Positions 6,688-46,335 of a stretch of 46,335 nucleotides of DNA are shown here, piece by piece. The stretch comes from Rhodocyclaceae bacterium (GTDB taxonomy: Bacteria; Pseudomonadota; Gammaproteobacteria; Burkholderiales; Rhodocyclaceae), in NCBI GenBank assembly GCA_020445665.1, contig JAGRGD010000339.1, positions 1 to 46,335 of the forward strand, written 5' to 3'. The position numbers and the translations under genes were made by a program. Numbering within the stretch: the stretch's first letter is position 1; each line of letters opens with the position of its first letter. The notes beneath the pieces were generated by a model that had not been told where the DNA came from, did not search any database, and saw only the letters and a program-made list of their open reading frames with translations.

Positions 6688-6709
6688 CGATCGGAGATCG
6701 CGCGCCTCG

Positions 6710-7804
6710 TCAGTTTCGCACGGTTTCCGTGGAAGGCTCTCTTGAGAAGAGTTGCTTGAGGGCCTTCCTTGTCAGATGTCGCGCGAGCAGGGCTACCGGC
6801 ATTCTGAGCCAGTGGCCCCGGCAGTTGAGGACAAATTCGGTGGCCTTTCCCAGGCTTGGATTGCCGGTTTCCGCGCGTTCGCACCCGATGACGAAAACCC
6901 GATCATAGAGCACATCCAGACGTTGTGCGCCATGGGCCCAGCGGCCAGCCGCGTCTGCAAGCTTGCTGACACTCGGGTCGGGGAAGTTGCGCTCAATATG
7001 GCGCAGCGCCAGCGCCAGGGGGCTTTGAAGGCGGAGTTCTTCCGCCCGATCCCGCAGCACGGCCAGATCATCAATGTGCCTCAGCAGCGCCCTCAGATCG
7101 AACAGGTCCCGCAGCGCGTTTCCGGCTTCGCCCTCTGAAAAAAGGTGGGCGGCGCCGTGCAGGAACTGATCCTCGGTCGATAGCACCGAGAGCGAAGCAT
7201 GGCTCGTGGCTTGACGTGCCTGCGCAAACAGTTTTTCCGGATACGTAGCGTAGCGGGACGTTCTGGGCGTGATGGTGTGGTGCAAGTCCAGATGGGTGCC
7301 GCGTTTGATGTGACGCAATGGAGGCAGCTCGTGCATCCACGTGCGGTAGTAGTACTGGTCGTAGGGGTCCCGGTTGGACATTGCCCAGCCGGCCGTCAGA
7401 AGCCGTTTTTCCACCGCGGCCAAAACCTCTGGCGGCACAAGGACGTCAATGTCTCCGAAGTGCCGGAAGTGCGCATGCGGCATGCCCTCGGCGATGTATG
7501 CACCGCCCTTGATCAGAACCGGTTCGACGCCCAGCGGCGCAAGCGTGCGCCGCAGTTCATCCGCTTCCCACAGCAAAGCGCGTTTCCGGTGATCCGCAAG
7601 GTGTCGTTCCGCTGACAGGAGTCGTTTGACGGCGTCGGGCGCGGTGTCGAGGTTCCGGCATTCCGCGAGCAGATTCAGCACTTGGCCCAATAGGCCGTTG
7701 GTCCGTGCCTGACGGACAAGCCGGCTCCAATCTGCTCCGTCAAGGTCGCGGGCACTGTCGGGCTGGGAAAGCACCCTGTGGAGCAGAGGAAGACGCCGGG
7801 CCAT
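6710..7804 (-). CDS. Nucleotidyltransferase family protein of the HprK-related cassette
   Basis: This 364-residue protein resembles the NTP_transf_5 family. It shows the nucleotidyltransferase core: LIKGGAY (98-103) and the metal-binding pair D118/D120 (HFGDIDVLV). A long helical C-terminal half includes HGAAHLFSEGE. It starts at ATG 7804, 4 bases after the stop of the HprK-related kinase gene. The upstream in-frame extension to 7894 would run inside that gene and is rejected. Proteins of this family occur beside HprK-like kinases and PqqD-like chaperones, including in some lasso-peptide tailoring clusters. Substrate is unknown; nucleotidylation of a peptide, glycan or small molecule are all open. 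Codon GC is visibly lower than in the flanking housekeeping genes. Confidence 0.85.
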   Translation of the reverse strand: MARRLPLLHRVLSQPDSARDLDGADWSRLVRQARTNGLLGQVLNLLAECRNLDTAPDAVKRLLSAERHLADHRKRALLWEADELRRTLAPLGVEPVLIKGGAYIAEGMPHAHFRHFGDIDVLVPPEVLAAVEKRLLTAGWAMSNRDPYDQYYYRTWMHELPPLRHIKRGTHLDLHHTITPRTSRYATYPEKLFAQARQATSHASLSVLSTEDQFLHGAAHLFSEGEAGNALRDLFDLRALLRHIDDLAVLRDRAEELRLQSPLALALRHIERNFPDPSVSKLADAAGRWAHGAQRLDVLYDRVFVIGCERAETGNPSLGKATEFVLNCRGHWLRMPVALLARHLTRKALKQLFSREPSTETVRN

Positions 7805-7808
7805 CAGA

Positions 7809-8714
7809 CTATTGCTCGCTGAGACGGTTGATCGCAAGGAGCGCGTCGTCCAGGCTCCCGAATCGCAGCCGATACCCTTTTGCGCGGTCTGCAAGGTGAC
7901 ATAGCGCTCGGAAAGCGGGTTCGCCGACGCCGCTCAGATTGAAGCAGTTGCCTGCGAGTTCGGCGACGAGCTCTGCATCCGTAATGGGCGTCATCTCAAC
8001 CGGTGCACCTGCTGCGAACTGGGGGATCACGACCCAGGCCGGCGTGGCGCCTCGTGTGTCCCGAACTGCATCACCGGGTGGACGCAGATGAGCCACTGTG
8101 CCCTTCACGGTATCGCGAATCGGAGGGGTGAACACGGCTTCAGGAAAGCGCTCGCCGATCAAGCCGATGGACGCGTTCTTCAGGCTGACCGGACGGCAAA
8201 TACACTCTACAGACGCCCCGTCCAGGTCAATCCTCGATATCTCGTCAGACATCAGCCGCCAGCCCGTCATTGCCAAGGCAGCCGTCAGCGTGCTTTTTCC
8301 AGAGCCCGGTGGCGCCGGGAGGAGGAGCGCGTTGCCGTGGCGCTCAAGCACTGCGCTGTGGCAGTTGACGGCGTCGTGCGCGGTGGACGTCACGCACCAG
8401 TTCATTCCCCATTCCAGCAGGGCAAAGGCCTGATCCGCCGGCAAGGGTTCGAACGGACTCGCGCCGTCCACTGCCAATCCCACTTCGGGCTTGAGCAGTG
8501 CGCGCGGCCCGGCGCTGGGCTCAATCCTGATGTCGAAGTCGAACCAGTCGGACGACGATCCGAGTTCAAAATCCGCGTAGGCGATGGCCAGGGCGGGCGC
8601 GATCGTGGCGGCAGAGGAGCGAATCCGGTATCGGAAACGTCCCGTGCAGAGAACGATCCCCTCTGAACTCAGCGTGGAGGTGAGGCCGGGCAATCCCAGC
8701 GAAGCCAGCTTCAA
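7809..8714 (-). CDS. HprK-related kinase (HprK-rel-A type)
   Basis: This 301-residue P-loop kinase is related to the HPr Ser kinase/phosphorylase. It has an N-terminal ~110 residues with the family signature LPADQAFALLEWGMNW (91-106). H119 (CHSAVLERHG) sits where HprK enzymes carry a catalytic-region histidine. The Walker A is PPGSGKST at 135-142, an acidic strand MSDEI follows at about 155-159, and SLKNASIGLI and DTVKGTVAHLRPPGD follow. HPr itself is not encoded nearby. The start appears to be TTG at 8714, overlapping the stop of the PqqD-like gene (TTGA), which implies translational coupling. The true target is unknown; the cassette suggests a peptide or protein bound by the PqqD-like partner. 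The phosphorylase activity of true HprK cannot be judged. Confidence 0.88.
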   Translation of the reverse strand: MKLASLGLPGLTSTLSSEGIVLCTGRFRYRIRSSAATIAPALAIAYADFELGSSSDWFDFDIRIEPSAGPRALLKPEVGLAVDGASPFEPLPADQAFALLEWGMNWCVTSTAHDAVNCHSAVLERHGNALLLPAPPGSGKSTLTAALAMTGWRLMSDEISRIDLDGASVECICRPVSLKNASIGLIGERFPEAVFTPPIRDTVKGTVAHLRPPGDAVRDTRGATPAWVVIPQFAAGAPVEMTPITDAELVAELAGNCFNLSGVGEPAFRALCHLADRAKGYRLRFGSLDDALLAINRLSEQ

Positions 8715-8944
8715 AGGGCTGGGAGACGCTGCAGGATGCCGATCGCCAGCAACTCGTGGACAAGCTCGACGTCGAATGCGCTGTCACCGCGCATCGGCGC
8801 ATCCTCTGGCTGGGCATTGATGCCGTCGATCAGGCGCGCGGCCTCCGGACTCAAGGCGACCACCGACCCGGAGTAAGGATCGAAGGTCGCCAGGCTTCCG
8901 TCACGCATCTGTCGAAACAACCACCGTGGCGATTTCTGCAGCAC
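8711..8944 (-). CDS. PqqD-like peptide chaperone of the HprK-related cassette
   Basis: This small protein of about 77 residues resembles PqqD/RRE peptide-recognition proteins. The pattern is an aromatic patch followed by PYSGSVVALSPEAARLIDGI and a helical end with VHELLAIGILQRL. PqqD-like domains bind the leader of a modified peptide and present it to an enzyme. I chose GTG 8944; the open frame extends further 5' but only into the upstream gene, and no ATG fits except an internal one that would remove the first strand. The Shine-Dalgarno is poor. It lies between a secreted orphan and the HprK-related kinase, and its stop overlaps the kinase TTG. Confidence in the family is moderate because the protein is short. 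Confidence 0.75.
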   Translation of the reverse strand: MLQKSPRWLFRQMRDGSLATFDPYSGSVVALSPEAARLIDGINAQPEDAPMRGDSAFDVELVHELLAIGILQRLPAL

Positions 8945-8991
8945 TTTCAGTCGATTGCGAGCAGTCCGGGTACGGGCGACGGACTGCGAAC

Positions 8992-9603
8992 CTATGGTTG
9001 CGGCGTGACGGTGATGTCGAGGTAGTCCCGCACGTCGCCTGGTGTCCAGGTCGAGAACTGGCTTTGGAGCGGCGTTCCACCGAAGGCGATCGCCCACAGG
9101 TCTGCGACGTCTTCCACTGAGATGAAGCCCTGAGACTTTCCGGTCACCACATCCAGGTAAAGAGTGACAAGGTCGGGCGCAACATCGCTTGCGCTGCCAG
9201 AGCGGAGGACGTCAAGCAGCTTCGACGATGCAGTGTAGCCGCCGGGGATAGGGGCGAACGGCGACGGAGAGTGCCCCGGTGAGCCCAGGGTCGCCGTATT
9301 GAAGTCGATGGGCGACCAGCGAGCGGTTCGCACATCGTCGGCGATGCCACTGTTGCCGTAATAACCGCGAGAACTACAGCGCGGATACTGGGTGATGGGC
9401 TTTTGGCTGGCGTGCGTAAAGGCCTGGATCGAACTGAAAGCCGATGGGGAAACGCAATAGCCTCCCGCCAGCGCACTGCCCGACTTGACGGCCAGGACGA
9501 CGGCGGCGGAACCGCCGGCTAGCAGGCGGCGCCGCGTTGCATCCTGCGCACCGTCCTGAGGTCGGCATTCCGTCGGTTCGTTGTTCTGGTTGTCATGCAG
9601 CAT
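8992..9603 (-). CDS. Tat-signal secreted protein of unknown function heading the HprK-related cassette
   Basis: I do not recognise a domain in this 203-residue protein. It opens with a polar N-region, then a twin-arginine-like motif TRRRLLAGG (23-31), a hydrophobic stretch SAAVVLAVKSGSALA and a likely cleavage site after ALA at about residue 46. This implies export in folded form, perhaps with a cofactor. The mature part has two cysteines (C50, C75), is rich in Ser, Gly, Pro and aromatic residues, and ends with an acidic region (SVEDVADLWAIAF, GDVRDYLDI). It is first in the run secreted protein - PqqD-like - HprK-like kinase - nucleotidyltransferase, and its stop is about 50 bases before the chaperone start. 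It is therefore the best candidate for the protein on which the cassette acts (inference). Confidence 0.75.
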   Translation of the reverse strand: MLHDNQNNEPTECRPQDGAQDATRRRLLAGGSAAVVLAVKSGSALAGGYCVSPSAFSSIQAFTHASQKPITQYPRCSSRGYYGNSGIADDVRTARWSPIDFNTATLGSPGHSPSPFAPIPGGYTASSKLLDVLRSGSASDVAPDLVTLYLDVVTGKSQGFISVEDVADLWAIAFGGTPLQSQFSTWTPGDVRDYLDITVTPQP

Positions 9604-9713
9604 GGTGAAGACCCCAATCTTTAAGCAGCCTAGAAACTCGATGTCAGTCTACGCGCTGAGCGGCTTGCCAGGCAGGTCCAATCAGCGGTGAGCCGTGATG
9701 TAGTTAGCAAAGC

Positions 9714-9734
9714 GAAAACCGCGCCAATCGGCGC
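9714..9734 (-). terminator. Possible terminator of the fructosamine-kinase-like gene
   Basis: Read on the minus strand, GCGCC-gatt-GGCGC forms a 5-bp GC stem with a 4-nt loop, followed by GGTTTTCGC, about 79 bases past the stop at 9813. The stem is short, so this is tentative. The rest of the 209-base gap (9604-9812) shows no gene or clear promoter. Confidence 0.4.
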
Positions 9735-9812
9735 AAGGGTCGATGAAACCTGGGGTTTGATCCCGCTCGCTGGAGCGACAGGCCGTGATGTGTAAGAAAT
9801 GTCGACGAAGCG

Positions 9813-44058: not shown

Positions 44059-44790
44059 ATGCGCAAGCGCCATTACCTGCTGGCCCCGCTGTTCGGACTG
44101 CTGTGTGCCCCCGCCGGCGCGGCGACCACGCAGGCCTTCGCCGAGCTGGACTGGACCACGCTGACGGTCACGCTCAGCGACCTGACGCCTTCCGACGGCC
44201 TGTTGCCAAGCTTCGAGTGGACGTCGATGACCTCCTTCGTCCGCCTGCAGGGCCCCTACGACCTGGCCAATAGCACCAGCGACTGGTTGACGCCGCTGGC
44301 GATCAGCGGTGGTGGCGCCTCCGGCTCGGTCGATGCCGCGACGGTGCGCAGCGCGTACGCCGGCAGCCTGCCCGGACTGGGCGCTGCCGCCGGCGCCGGG
44401 CGGCTAGGGGATTTCGAACTGGGCGGCGGCTCGGCGGTCGAGATCTCGGTCTGGGCAGAATTTGCCGAGGTCCCCTGGGAGGGGCTAACGACCAGTGCCT
44501 ACGCAATCACCTTCAATCCGGTAGACCCGAGCAATCCGGCGTGGGGCAGCTATGACCAGATCAAGGGTCTTGATGCAAGCGGTGCGTTCGAGGTTTCAGG
44601 CGCCGGCTGGATCAGCCTGAGCATCGCCAATCCCACCGCTCAGCCGGTCAGCCTGATTTACTGGGCCGACACCCTGGTCGCTTCGCCGGTGCCGGAGCCG
44701 TCGACGCAAGCGACGATGCTGCTCGGGGCGGCCGTTGTCGGGTTTGCGGCGCTGGCGCGATGTCGGCGCTCGGCGGGTTTCGCCGCTTAA
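44059..44790 (+). CDS. PEP-CTERM sorting domain protein
   Basis: This 243-residue exported protein has an N-terminal Sec signal ([20 protein letters not shown], about 2-21) and the C-terminal exosortase recognition tripartite end: SPVPEPST (about 209-216), a hydrophobic helix ([14 protein letters not shown]) and a basic tail (RCRRS). The mature part is rich in Ser/Gly/Thr and looks all-beta, with no catalytic domain recognised. It is expected to be processed by an exosortase encoded elsewhere and displayed in the exopolysaccharide matrix. The ribosome site GGAGAG precedes ATG 44059. Confidence 0.92.
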
Positions 44791-44831
44791 GGTTTCTTGG
44801 CGAGCGTTATACGCAAGTTGGCTTGTTGTCT

Positions 44832-44862
44832 GGCGGATGACGCTGCGCTCTTCCGCCCTACG
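44832..44862 (-). repeat. REP-like palindrome, variant copy
   Basis: A 31-base element, read on the minus strand, starts CGTAGGGCGGA and ends TCCGCC, so GGCGGA pairs with TCCGCC. It shares the head CGTAGGGCG with the two exact repeats at 45526 and 45712, but the stem sequence differs. It lies in the 196-base gap between the PEP-CTERM gene and the orphan membrane gene; nothing else is seen in that gap. Confidence 0.6.
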
Positions 44863-44986
44863 CCAACTGCGGCCGGTTGTTGACCGGTCATCCGGCCCGG
44901 CGAATAGCGGCCGGCACGAAGACCGATAATTCGCACTTGGCATTCTTCGAAGGCGCCCCCTCTGGGGTTCAAGGTCTCAGCACCAG

Positions 44987-45511
44987 ATGGAGACTATGAC
45001 TGGCTTGAGCATTCTCGAACTGCCGCTCGGGGTTGAATATTTCGCGATCGGCACGGTCTCTCTGCTCGCGGCGGCCGCCCTGCTGGGTTCCTTGCGGTAC
45101 CACGTCTGTGTGCGTTTGACGGGCATCGTCGTTGGCGGATCGATCCTGATACTTTCTGCCGACCAATTCTTTGTCGCGCTGACACGGTGGCATACCGTTT
45201 TGCCCCTGCGGCGATTTTCGGACCGGGCCCCGATTATCCGTGTTTGGGAGAACCCTGGTGTCTTCTGGTTTTCCGTGATGCTCTGGTCGATTCTTGTCGT
45301 CTTTGCGGTTGCCCTTATCTGGTTCACGATTCGTGGCGACCCTGCGCGCGTTGAATCTGTCAGGAGCCGTTTGGTACGAGGCTGGCCGATAACCTTGCTC
45401 GGTGTTCTGTTGTATGGATGGGCCGGACTGGGATTCTTGCCGATGGGTTGGGAACTCTTGCAAAACCCGTGGCTGGAGAATGCGCTCCCCGCCCGACGGC
45501 TGATGCCATGA
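44987..45511 (+). CDS. Orphan inner-membrane protein, four predicted helices
   Basis: I do not recognise this 174-residue protein. Hydrophobic segments lie at about 18-36, 43-64, 92-115 and 132-155. The loops are short and the C-terminus (LLQNPWLENALPARRLMP) is soluble. ATG 44987 has AAGG about 10 bases upstream; ATG 44996 (MTGLSI) is an alternative. Base composition is visibly lower in GC than the flanks and codon choice differs, suggesting acquisition. REP-like elements stand on both sides (44832 and 45526/45712). It may be a small integral protein of unknown role. Confidence 0.7.
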   Translation: METMTGLSILELPLGVEYFAIGTVSLLAAAALLGSLRYHVCVRLTGIVVGGSILILSADQFFVALTRWHTVLPLRRFSDRAPIIRVWENPGVFWFSVMLWSILVVFAVALIWFTIRGDPARVESVRSRLVRGWPITLLGVLLYGWAGLGFLPMGWELLQNPWLENALPARRLMP

Positions 45512-45525
45512 GGATGAACAGCCCG

Positions 45526-45557
45526 CGTAGGGCGCAATAACCGAAGGGCATTGCGCC
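45526..45557 (+). repeat. REP-like palindrome, copy A
   Basis: This 32-base element has head CGTAG, then a near-palindromic GGCGCAAT ... ATTGCGCC stem enclosing AACCGAAGGGC. It matches copy B exactly in inverted orientation. The pattern is a REP (repetitive extragenic palindrome), spread in many proteobacteria by RAYT (REP-associated tyrosine) transposases; no such gene is present in this window. Confidence 0.85.
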
Positions 45558-45711
45558 GGGTTCCGCCGGGTTGTTCAAACCCGATCGATAGCCTCCCAAT
45601 GGCCTGGCGGGTTGGCCAGAACGGGACAGAATTGTTCGCGAATCAATTGAGCGCACGCTGCTTACCAATGCGCTTCTCCTTCGAATCGCAGGTTCGTGCG
45701 TTGGCTGTCGT

Positions 45712-45743
45712 GGCGCAATGCCCTTCGGTTATTGCGCCCTACG
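45712..45743 (-). repeat. REP-like palindrome, copy B (exact inverted copy of A)
   Basis: Over 32 bases the minus strand is identical to copy A. The two are 154 bases apart, a typical BIME-like pair. The enclosed 154 bases (45558-45711) hold no gene that I can support. The whole gene-free stretch 45512-45898 contains this pair, further unremarkable DNA and the fba terminator. Confidence 0.85.
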
Positions 45744-45831
45744 GTATCCGCGGTGGTACCCGACACGCCGCATCCGCATCGCCCGTCCCTTCGCCGCACA
45801 CGCACCTTTTAGCTGCGCTTCGCCGTCAACG

Positions 45832-45858
45832 AAAAAGCCCGCATCGACCGATGCGGGC
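45832..45858 (-). terminator. Intrinsic terminator of fba
   Basis: On the minus strand, GCCCGCATC pairs with GATGCGGGC (9-bp stem, 4-nt loop, 45837-45858) and is followed by TTTTTC. It lies about 40 bases after the fba stop. Confidence 0.9.
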
Positions 45859-45898
45859 AAGGCGCTGAGCGCTGGAGTCGTCAATCGAAGTCGGGGTC

Positions 45899-46335
45899 TC
45901 AGCCGGCGGCGTAGCGTTTTGCGAGGGCCTCGAGGGGCAAGGGCTTGATGCGGGCGGCCTGGCCGGCGGTGCCGAAGGCCTCGAAGCGGGCCTTGCAGAT
46001 GTCGGTGGCGGCGTCGCGGGCGGCTTTGAAGAACTTGCGCGGGTCGAACTCGCTCTTTTTCTCGACGGCCAGTCGGCGCATCGCGCCGGTCATCGCGAGG
46101 CGCAGGTCGGTGTCGATGTTCACCTTGCGCACGCCGCTTTTGATGCCTTCGACGATCGCCTCGACCGGCACGCCGTAGGTCTCGCCGATCTCGCCGCCGT
46201 ACTCGCGGATGATCGCCAGCCACTCCTGCGGCACGCTGGACGAGCCGTGCATGACCAGGTGGGTGTCCGGGATGCGGGCGTGGATGGCGCGGATGCGGTC
46301 GATGGCGAGGATGTCGCCGGTGGGCGGGCGGGTGA
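45899..46335 (-). CDS. fba: Class II fructose-bisphosphate aldolase, C-terminal part (5' end outside window)
   Basis: The visible ~144 residues end a class II (zinc) aldolase that interconverts fructose-1,6-bisphosphate with dihydroxyacetone phosphate and glyceraldehyde-3-phosphate. The zinc-binding and catalytic stretch is [47 protein letters not shown] and [17 protein letters not shown]. The terminal [17 protein letters not shown] matches the Calvin-cycle subtype (CbbA/FbaA-like). The frame enters from the window end at 46335. Its stop is followed by a clear terminator. Confidence 0.96.

Follow-up and report, generated by a model that had tools for sequence, protein, structure and literature searches.

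A kinase, RRE and nucleotidyltransferase cassette adjoining a Tat-signal exported protein, its candidate substrate, in a Rhodocyclaceae bacterium

Gene organization of the cassette

We analyzed a 46,335-nucleotide stretch of DNA from a Rhodocyclaceae bacterium (GenBank assembly GCA_020445665.1, contig JAGRGD010000339.1, positions 1 to 46,335; the whole stretch is hereafter the window), which carries at 6710-9603 a four-gene cassette encoded entirely on the minus strand. In the order of transcription, the genes specify an exported protein, a PqqD-like protein, an HprK-related kinase, and a nucleotidyltransferase. A preliminary description of this DNA had read the four genes as a modification system acting on the adjacent exported protein or on an unlinked peptide; the observation itself is confirmed, in that the placement of open reading frames (ORFs) reproduces the gene order and the TTGA overlap that it reported, and its interpretation is partly supported. 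The features of the cassette are listed below, where Tat denotes twin-arginine translocation and RRE the recognition element of ribosomally synthesized and post-translationally modified peptides (RiPPs).

8992..9603, minus strand: exported protein, the proposed substrate (203 residues; twin-arginine signal R24-R25; invariant S54 and S58)
9418..9457, minus strand: DNA for approximately residues 49-62 of the exported protein, segment YCVSPSAFSSIQAF with C50, S54, and S58 (predicted to be disordered; proposed modification site)
8711..8944, minus strand: PqqD-like RRE protein (77 residues; GTG start chosen; weak TIGR04353 score and predicted fold)
7809..8714, minus strand: HprK-related kinase A (301 residues; TTG start; TIGR04352 match)
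6710..7804, minus strand: nucleotidyltransferase, NTP_transf_5 (364 residues; PF14907 match)

The TTG start of the kinase overlaps the stop codon of the PqqD-like gene as TTGA, and the ATG of the nucleotidyltransferase at 7804 lies 4 bases past the kinase stop, within a listed ORF that extends to a TTG at 7894. The GTG start of the PqqD-like gene is a choice, as a longer in-frame ORF reaching 9097 would overlap the exported gene. A scan for promoter- and terminator-like sites returned none above chance.

The enzymes of the cassette

Profile searches uphold the identities first proposed for the two enzymes. The kinase is a member of the NCBIfam family TIGR04352 (HprK_rel_A), which it matches with 322.8 bits against a cut-off of 200. 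H119, the Walker A residues G137, G139, K140, and T142, and the acidic pair D157-E158 are invariant in 53 of 53 aligned kinases, and a profile of these kinases aligns this same stretch of histidine, Walker A motif, and acidic pair with HPr kinase 1jb1 (E 0.0037). In contrast, the cassette kinase reaches only 10.9 bits against Hpr_kinase_C, below the cut-off of 33.3, and its assignment as an HPr kinase/phosphorylase proper was rejected on this basis. Among the matches listed, the closest kinases in named organisms are those of Duganella and Kineobactrum (47%) and Thiobacillus (46%). Kinases exceeding the TIGR04352 cut-off are present in 41 of 369 genomes of the class and in 128 of 297 genomes of the family. 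A same-genus genome (G371, contig C287, locus L273) harbors a second HprK-like kinase that scores 107.8 bits, below the TIGR04352 cut-off.

The nucleotidyltransferase matches PF14907 with an E value of 8.6e-54, conserves D117-x-D119 in 51 of 51 aligned sequences, and is remotely similar to AbiEii and Rv1045. In loci L096, L098, L105, L107, L108, and L109, the nucleotidyltransferase gene is found upstream on the opposite strand, and all six carry the C-terminal-serine substrate type described below.

The PqqD-like protein of the window is weak by itself (16.1 bits against TIGR04353, PqqD_rel_X, with a cut-off of 35, and no match in Pfam), and its reading as an RRE therefore rests on its relatives and on its predicted fold. 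When proteins taken from the PqqD-like position are scored against TIGR04353, 87 of 95 (counting the window's) reach E 0.1 or better, and a profile of these relatives matches the RREs of the lasso B1 proteins in the PDB (TfuB1, 2.5e-9; TbiB1, 3.1e-8). The predicted structure of the window protein is confident, with a mean predicted local distance difference test score (pLDDT) of 88.2, and its top PDB fold match is TbiB1 with a bound leader peptide (E 0.0029, probability 1.00); the next-ranked matches include RiPP heterocyclases and sactipeptide-type radical S-adenosylmethionine (SAM) enzymes. The PqqD-like identity originally suggested is thus retained: from its position, relatives, and predicted fold, we take the protein to be a divergent RRE adjoining an HprK_rel_A kinase, though not a member of TIGR04353. 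A separate PqqD is encoded on another contig of the same genome (L001, G000:C213, 38541-38729) beside a radical-SAM gene, probably for synthesis of pyrroloquinoline quinone (PQQ). The genome has 23 radical-SAM matches, all of them on contigs other than the window's, in keeping with what had been noted from the window, and PQQ biosynthesis was rejected as the function of the cassette because the contig lacks such a gene, whereas the genome's other PqqD adjoins one.

NCBIfam already names an HPr-rel-A kinase together with a PqqD-like partner (TIGR04352 and TIGR04353), and the enzyme set is therefore not new. The cassette shares with this system a kinase over cut-off and a PqqD-like neighbor at the equivalent place; it differs in that the window's PqqD-like protein falls below the TIGR04353 cut-off and in that no NCBIfam model fits the exported partner. 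The kinase belongs to a named system, and the cassette is not categorically new, so the novelty first suggested for it is not supported as worded.

Linkage of the exported protein to the enzymes

We surveyed the gene neighborhood in two sets of loci. The first (n = 133) comprises the window, every one of the 40 additional class loci that exceed the cut-off, and 92 of 130 additional family loci; the second (n = 80) consists of named-organism loci fetched by the kinase alone and holds the best 80 of at least 283 relatives of the kinase. The two sets share some genomes and include close relatives, and the counts given here are therefore not independent events. With a model of the signal region, an exported ORF is found directly upstream in 131 of the 133 loci, a number that is partly in-sample since the model was trained on 94 of them; among the 39 loci outside the training set, it still found 37. 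Only two other matches above 10 bits occur among ≈15,000 ORFs, and the two misses (L047 and L111) are truncated by contig ends. An initial automatic signal test had returned 97 of 133 loci, with L108, L158, and L166 distrusted and excluded from model training. In the second set, the signal model places the exported gene upstream in 71 of 80 loci and downstream of the nucleotidyltransferase in three (L199, L209, and L237, the last with two tandem copies); the remaining six harbor a comparable RRR-signal protein, as judged by eye. The PqqD-like gene is detected in 130 loci of the first set (n = 133) and in all 80 of the second; for the nucleotidyltransferase the figures are 130 and 78, and its five misses all lie on contigs of ≤6.4 kb. 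The preliminary description had named a PqqD-like ORF without an RRE profile and a lack of joint conservation as outcomes that would speak against it; what is found is an RRE at the PqqD-like position and four genes conserved together, exported protein included.

A class-wide search with a profile of the exported protein finds matches at E 1e-4 in 48 of 369 genomes. Of 32 matches above 70 bits, 30 adjoin an over-cut-off kinase and two (G015:C37 and G296:C20) do not; at lower scores, the matches are mainly either short peptides close to HprK-like kinases that miss the cut-off or regions limited to the C-terminal part of larger proteins. The window's genome encodes a single clear copy, with the next match at E 0.03. 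Gene clustering across loci brought only 68 exported genes together in a single group, because their sequences differ so strongly, and revealed no recurring immunity or protease gene in the cassette. In L068, L069, and L070, trypsin-like and Sel1/transglycosylase-like genes (by eye) adjoin the cassette, and similar trypsin-like genes are present in 25 loci of the set.

Short ORFs (≈59-84 residues) with a similar SRRxFLK-type signal are found in L259 (6622-6876), L260 (6212-6391), L261, L262, L265, and L266 (5191-5418). In L259 and L260, HprK-like kinases that score under the TIGR04352 cut-off are encoded no more than ≈2 kb away; a PqqD-like gene is additionally present in L259, L261, and L262. 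These short ORFs and sub-cut-off kinases possibly constitute a related short-peptide system.

Conserved serines and predicted fold of the exported protein

The exported proteins are mostly ≈120-290 residues long and carry a Tat-like signal; TatC is encoded in the window's genome. Alignments of a main type (A2, 75 proteins) and a second type (A3, 32 proteins) cover 107 of 131 proteins, picked by eye; the 24 excluded include near-copies and odd ones (L150, L110, L095, and L100). At a mean identity of 15%, the 75 main-type proteins share as invariant residues only M1, R24, R25, S54, and S58 (window numbering). In a further alignment of named-locus proteins (A6; 68 of 70 extracted plus the window, with L179 and L232 excluded and L228 giving no start), R25, S54, and S58 are invariant in all 69; another alignment (A7) covers 66 of 75 proteins plus the window's sequence. 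The twin arginine precedes a hydrophobic stretch and is invariant in 75 of 75 main-type and 32 of 32 second-type proteins. Of 194 distinct proteins, 149 have the motif C-x(2,3)-S-x(3,4)-S after the signal, compared with a mean of 5.4 and a maximum of 14 in shuffled sequences, and the looser C-x(2,3)-S occurs anywhere in the mature part of 120 of 131 proteins versus a shuffled mean of 63. The second type is characterized by a [CA]-x-x-S-[LIV] motif near the C terminus, which is near-invariant in the 32 aligned sequences.

Residues 51-70, the segment with S54 and S58, have pLDDT values below 50 and are predicted to be disordered, and residues 141-200 are predicted to be mostly helical (pLDDT ≈85-92). 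The mean pLDDT of the whole protein is 62.9, and no structural match in the PDB to its predicted fold is better than E 2.4; on both counts, an assignment of function from the fold was rejected. NCBIfam families match none of the 75 main-type proteins; in the 32 second-type proteins, two weak unrelated families match one protein each, and Pfam returns a single weak match for the main type. For the window's exported protein, searches of NCBIfam, Pfam, and the PDB gave no family assignment. Most members contain a further domain of ≈100 residues or more. In L096, a member of 74 residues, only 18 residues remain past the signal core, and its C terminus reads CNASLI. By eye, C50 was rejected as a lipoprotein cysteine, as it lies a few residues past an AxA site and outside a lipobox.

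Some larger proteins (L267, 2726-4153; L268, 3920-5812) end in the same C-terminal part as the exported protein (C-x-P-x-[YF]-W-[KR] ... HAVAALLNA); their N termini are signal-like, and no RR motif was seen in them. This recurrence in larger, exported-looking proteins suggests that the C-terminal part acts outside the cell.

Concordance of the genes and exchange of the cassette

On a tree of 82 kinases, from those of the 133 loci with all four genes called and with type labels set by eye beforehand from the exported proteins, the two substrate types require a single change (support 100/99, with the bootstrap not settled); shuffled labels require a mean of 18.9 changes, and none of 500 shuffles is as low as one. 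Kinase distances track those of the nucleotidyltransferase, the PqqD-like protein, and the exported protein, with Mantel r of 0.86, 0.68, and 0.76, respectively, and permutation maxima of ≈0.1.

Upstream of the cassette in the window are a fructosamine-kinase-family gene and a Ser/Thr kinase gene with a cyclic-nucleotide domain, and downstream is the convergent grxD. All six same-genus genomes examined, the window's included, carry a cassette between grxD and the fructosamine-kinase gene, and this site holds three very different cassette versions in both orientations (window, 6688-9812; L116, L124, L128, L148, and L149). Between the window and genome G370, the flanking genes are 89% (prfA), 85% (grxD), and 81% (Ser/Thr kinase) identical, whereas the cassette proteins are only 36% (kinase), 38% (nucleotidyltransferase), 25% (RRE), and 29% (exported protein) identical. 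The window kinase is likewise 35% identical to that of G371, and the G370 kinase is 79% and 76% identical to those of G369 and G373. As flanks of 81-89% identity enclose cassettes of 25-38% identity in varying orientation, we conclude from these sequence comparisons that an allele is exchanged as a whole, together with its substrate.

The lower GC content of the block had earlier been taken to suggest transfer. The block is indeed lower (0.629 versus 0.681 in the remaining window), with 15 of 435 sliding windows equally low, but grxD (0.593) lies inside the same low-GC stretch; GC alone is therefore not accepted as proof of transfer, for which exchange within the genus is the better evidence. 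A further low-GC stretch (0.61) with strong AT skew is found at the end of the window (44501-46000).

Discussion

Gene linkage, the invariant serines, the predicted RRE fold, and cassette exchange, all drawn from comparison of sequences and models, lead us to lean toward a cassette dedicated to the modification and export of a single protein, a reading that we hold to be somewhat probable. In the cytoplasm, the RRE would bind the N-terminal Tat signal region of the newly made protein and recruit the kinase, which would phosphorylate S54 and/or S58 or, in the second type, the serine of the C-terminal C-x-x-S. A hexose or a nucleotide may then be added to the phosphate by the nucleotidyltransferase, in line with the reported action of PsmN on the phosphoserine of pseudomycoidin, and Tat would export the modified protein; cleavage after ALA (44-46) would place the serines at mature positions 8 and 12.

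A known system close in enzyme type is the tailoring of lasso peptides by PadeK, PsmK, and PsmN. As described in the accounts of that system (PMC8498205, PMC9266682), a homologue of HPr kinase phosphorylates the C-terminal serine and PsmN adds one or two hexoses to the phosphate, with nucleotidylation not excluded, such that an HPr-kinase homologue, a nucleotidyltransferase, and an RRE act on a ribosomal product. The RRE profile of the cassette relatives matches the lasso B1 proteins, as noted above; in contrast, the leader protease (PF13471) has no match in the genome (341 contigs, ≈94% complete), extending genome-wide the absence first noted in the window, and the putative substrate here is an exported protein with a Tat signal. 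A lasso-peptide cluster is not supported by this leader-protease test, no search for a lasso cyclase having been made. A second parallel is offered by bufferins and other RiPPs of the multinuclear nonheme iron-dependent oxidative enzymes (MNIOs), for which a published account describes Sec signals, some very long precursors, and an export signal in place of the classical leader, an arrangement its authors call rare (PMC12452194). The cassette differs in its twin-arginine-type signal and in its kinase and nucleotidyltransferase, and family scans found no MNIO gene in it. The open-licence papers searched yielded no characterization of the system.

Several points weigh against a dedicated, modified substrate. 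The motif after the signal is lacking in 45 of 194 exported proteins; about 30 of these (by eye) are of the second type, with its single conserved serine near the C terminus, and a few, for example L150 and L110, fit neither type. The window's PqqD-like protein falls below the TIGR04353 cut-off, none of its fold matches lies below E 0.001, and the PqqD-like gene is undetected in three of 133 loci. Linked inheritance alone would also yield concordant trees, and the likeness of the cassette enzymes to PsmK and PsmN is one of enzyme type. Finally, binding, phosphorylation, capping, and export are steps that we infer.

The chemistry of the modification separates this proposal from its nearest alternative, in which the substrate and kinase are as above and the nucleotidyltransferase leaves a nucleotide, as a phosphodiester on phosphoserine or on another residue, and no sugar. 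In its favor, the enzymes of PF14907 are nucleotidyltransferases, the D-x-D is conserved, and a review leaves nucleotidylation by PsmN open in its discussion of that enzyme (PMC9266682); the reported product of the PsmN pathway nonetheless bears hexoses (PMC8498205, PMC9266682), and we regard a nucleotide-only product as rather improbable. As to the target, the choice first offered between the adjacent exported protein and an unlinked peptide now leans to the former. The sub-cut-off kinases near short Tat-signal peptides indicate that kinase-RRE pairs can have small substrates, and the enzymes might thus act on a small unlinked peptide or on a nonprotein substrate, with the exported protein as an extracellular partner of the product. 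This is unlikely, given that the exported gene adjoins the RRE gene almost everywhere and that, besides M1 and the twin arginine, only serines are invariant in the exported protein.

Less likely still is a RiPP-like product of competition, in which the segment after the signal would be bioactive and the swapped alleles would reflect competition between strains. The mini-precursor L096 and the exchange of alleles at a fixed site fit such a role, but the additional domain of most members and the absence of a recurring immunity or protease gene from the cassette do not. The remote similarity of the nucleotidyltransferase to AbiEii and Rv1045 could also hint at a defense or toxin-type system; PADLOC models match none of the four proteins, on which ground a defense system was rejected, and an RRE with an exported partner bearing invariant serines fits it poorly, leaving it very improbable.

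Set against these alternatives, a dedicated Tat-exported substrate may be part of a broader picture, which we put forward tentatively and with some doubt: a pathway, widespread among proteobacteria, whose RRE would use the Tat signal as a leader, whose serine kinase and NTP_transf_5 enzyme would build phosphoglycosyl or phosphonucleotidyl groups on exported proteins, and whose alleles, enzymes and substrate together, would be swapped at a fixed chromosomal site. The kinase and the PqqD-like partner bear NCBIfam names, but none of the NCBIfam models matched a target; proposed here are a target family, candidate residues, and two target geometries, which differ with the clade of the kinase. The 74-residue member L096 would be suited to mass spectrometry. 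If true, the proposal would extend leader-guided modification of the RiPP kind to Tat-exported proteins instead of small peptides.

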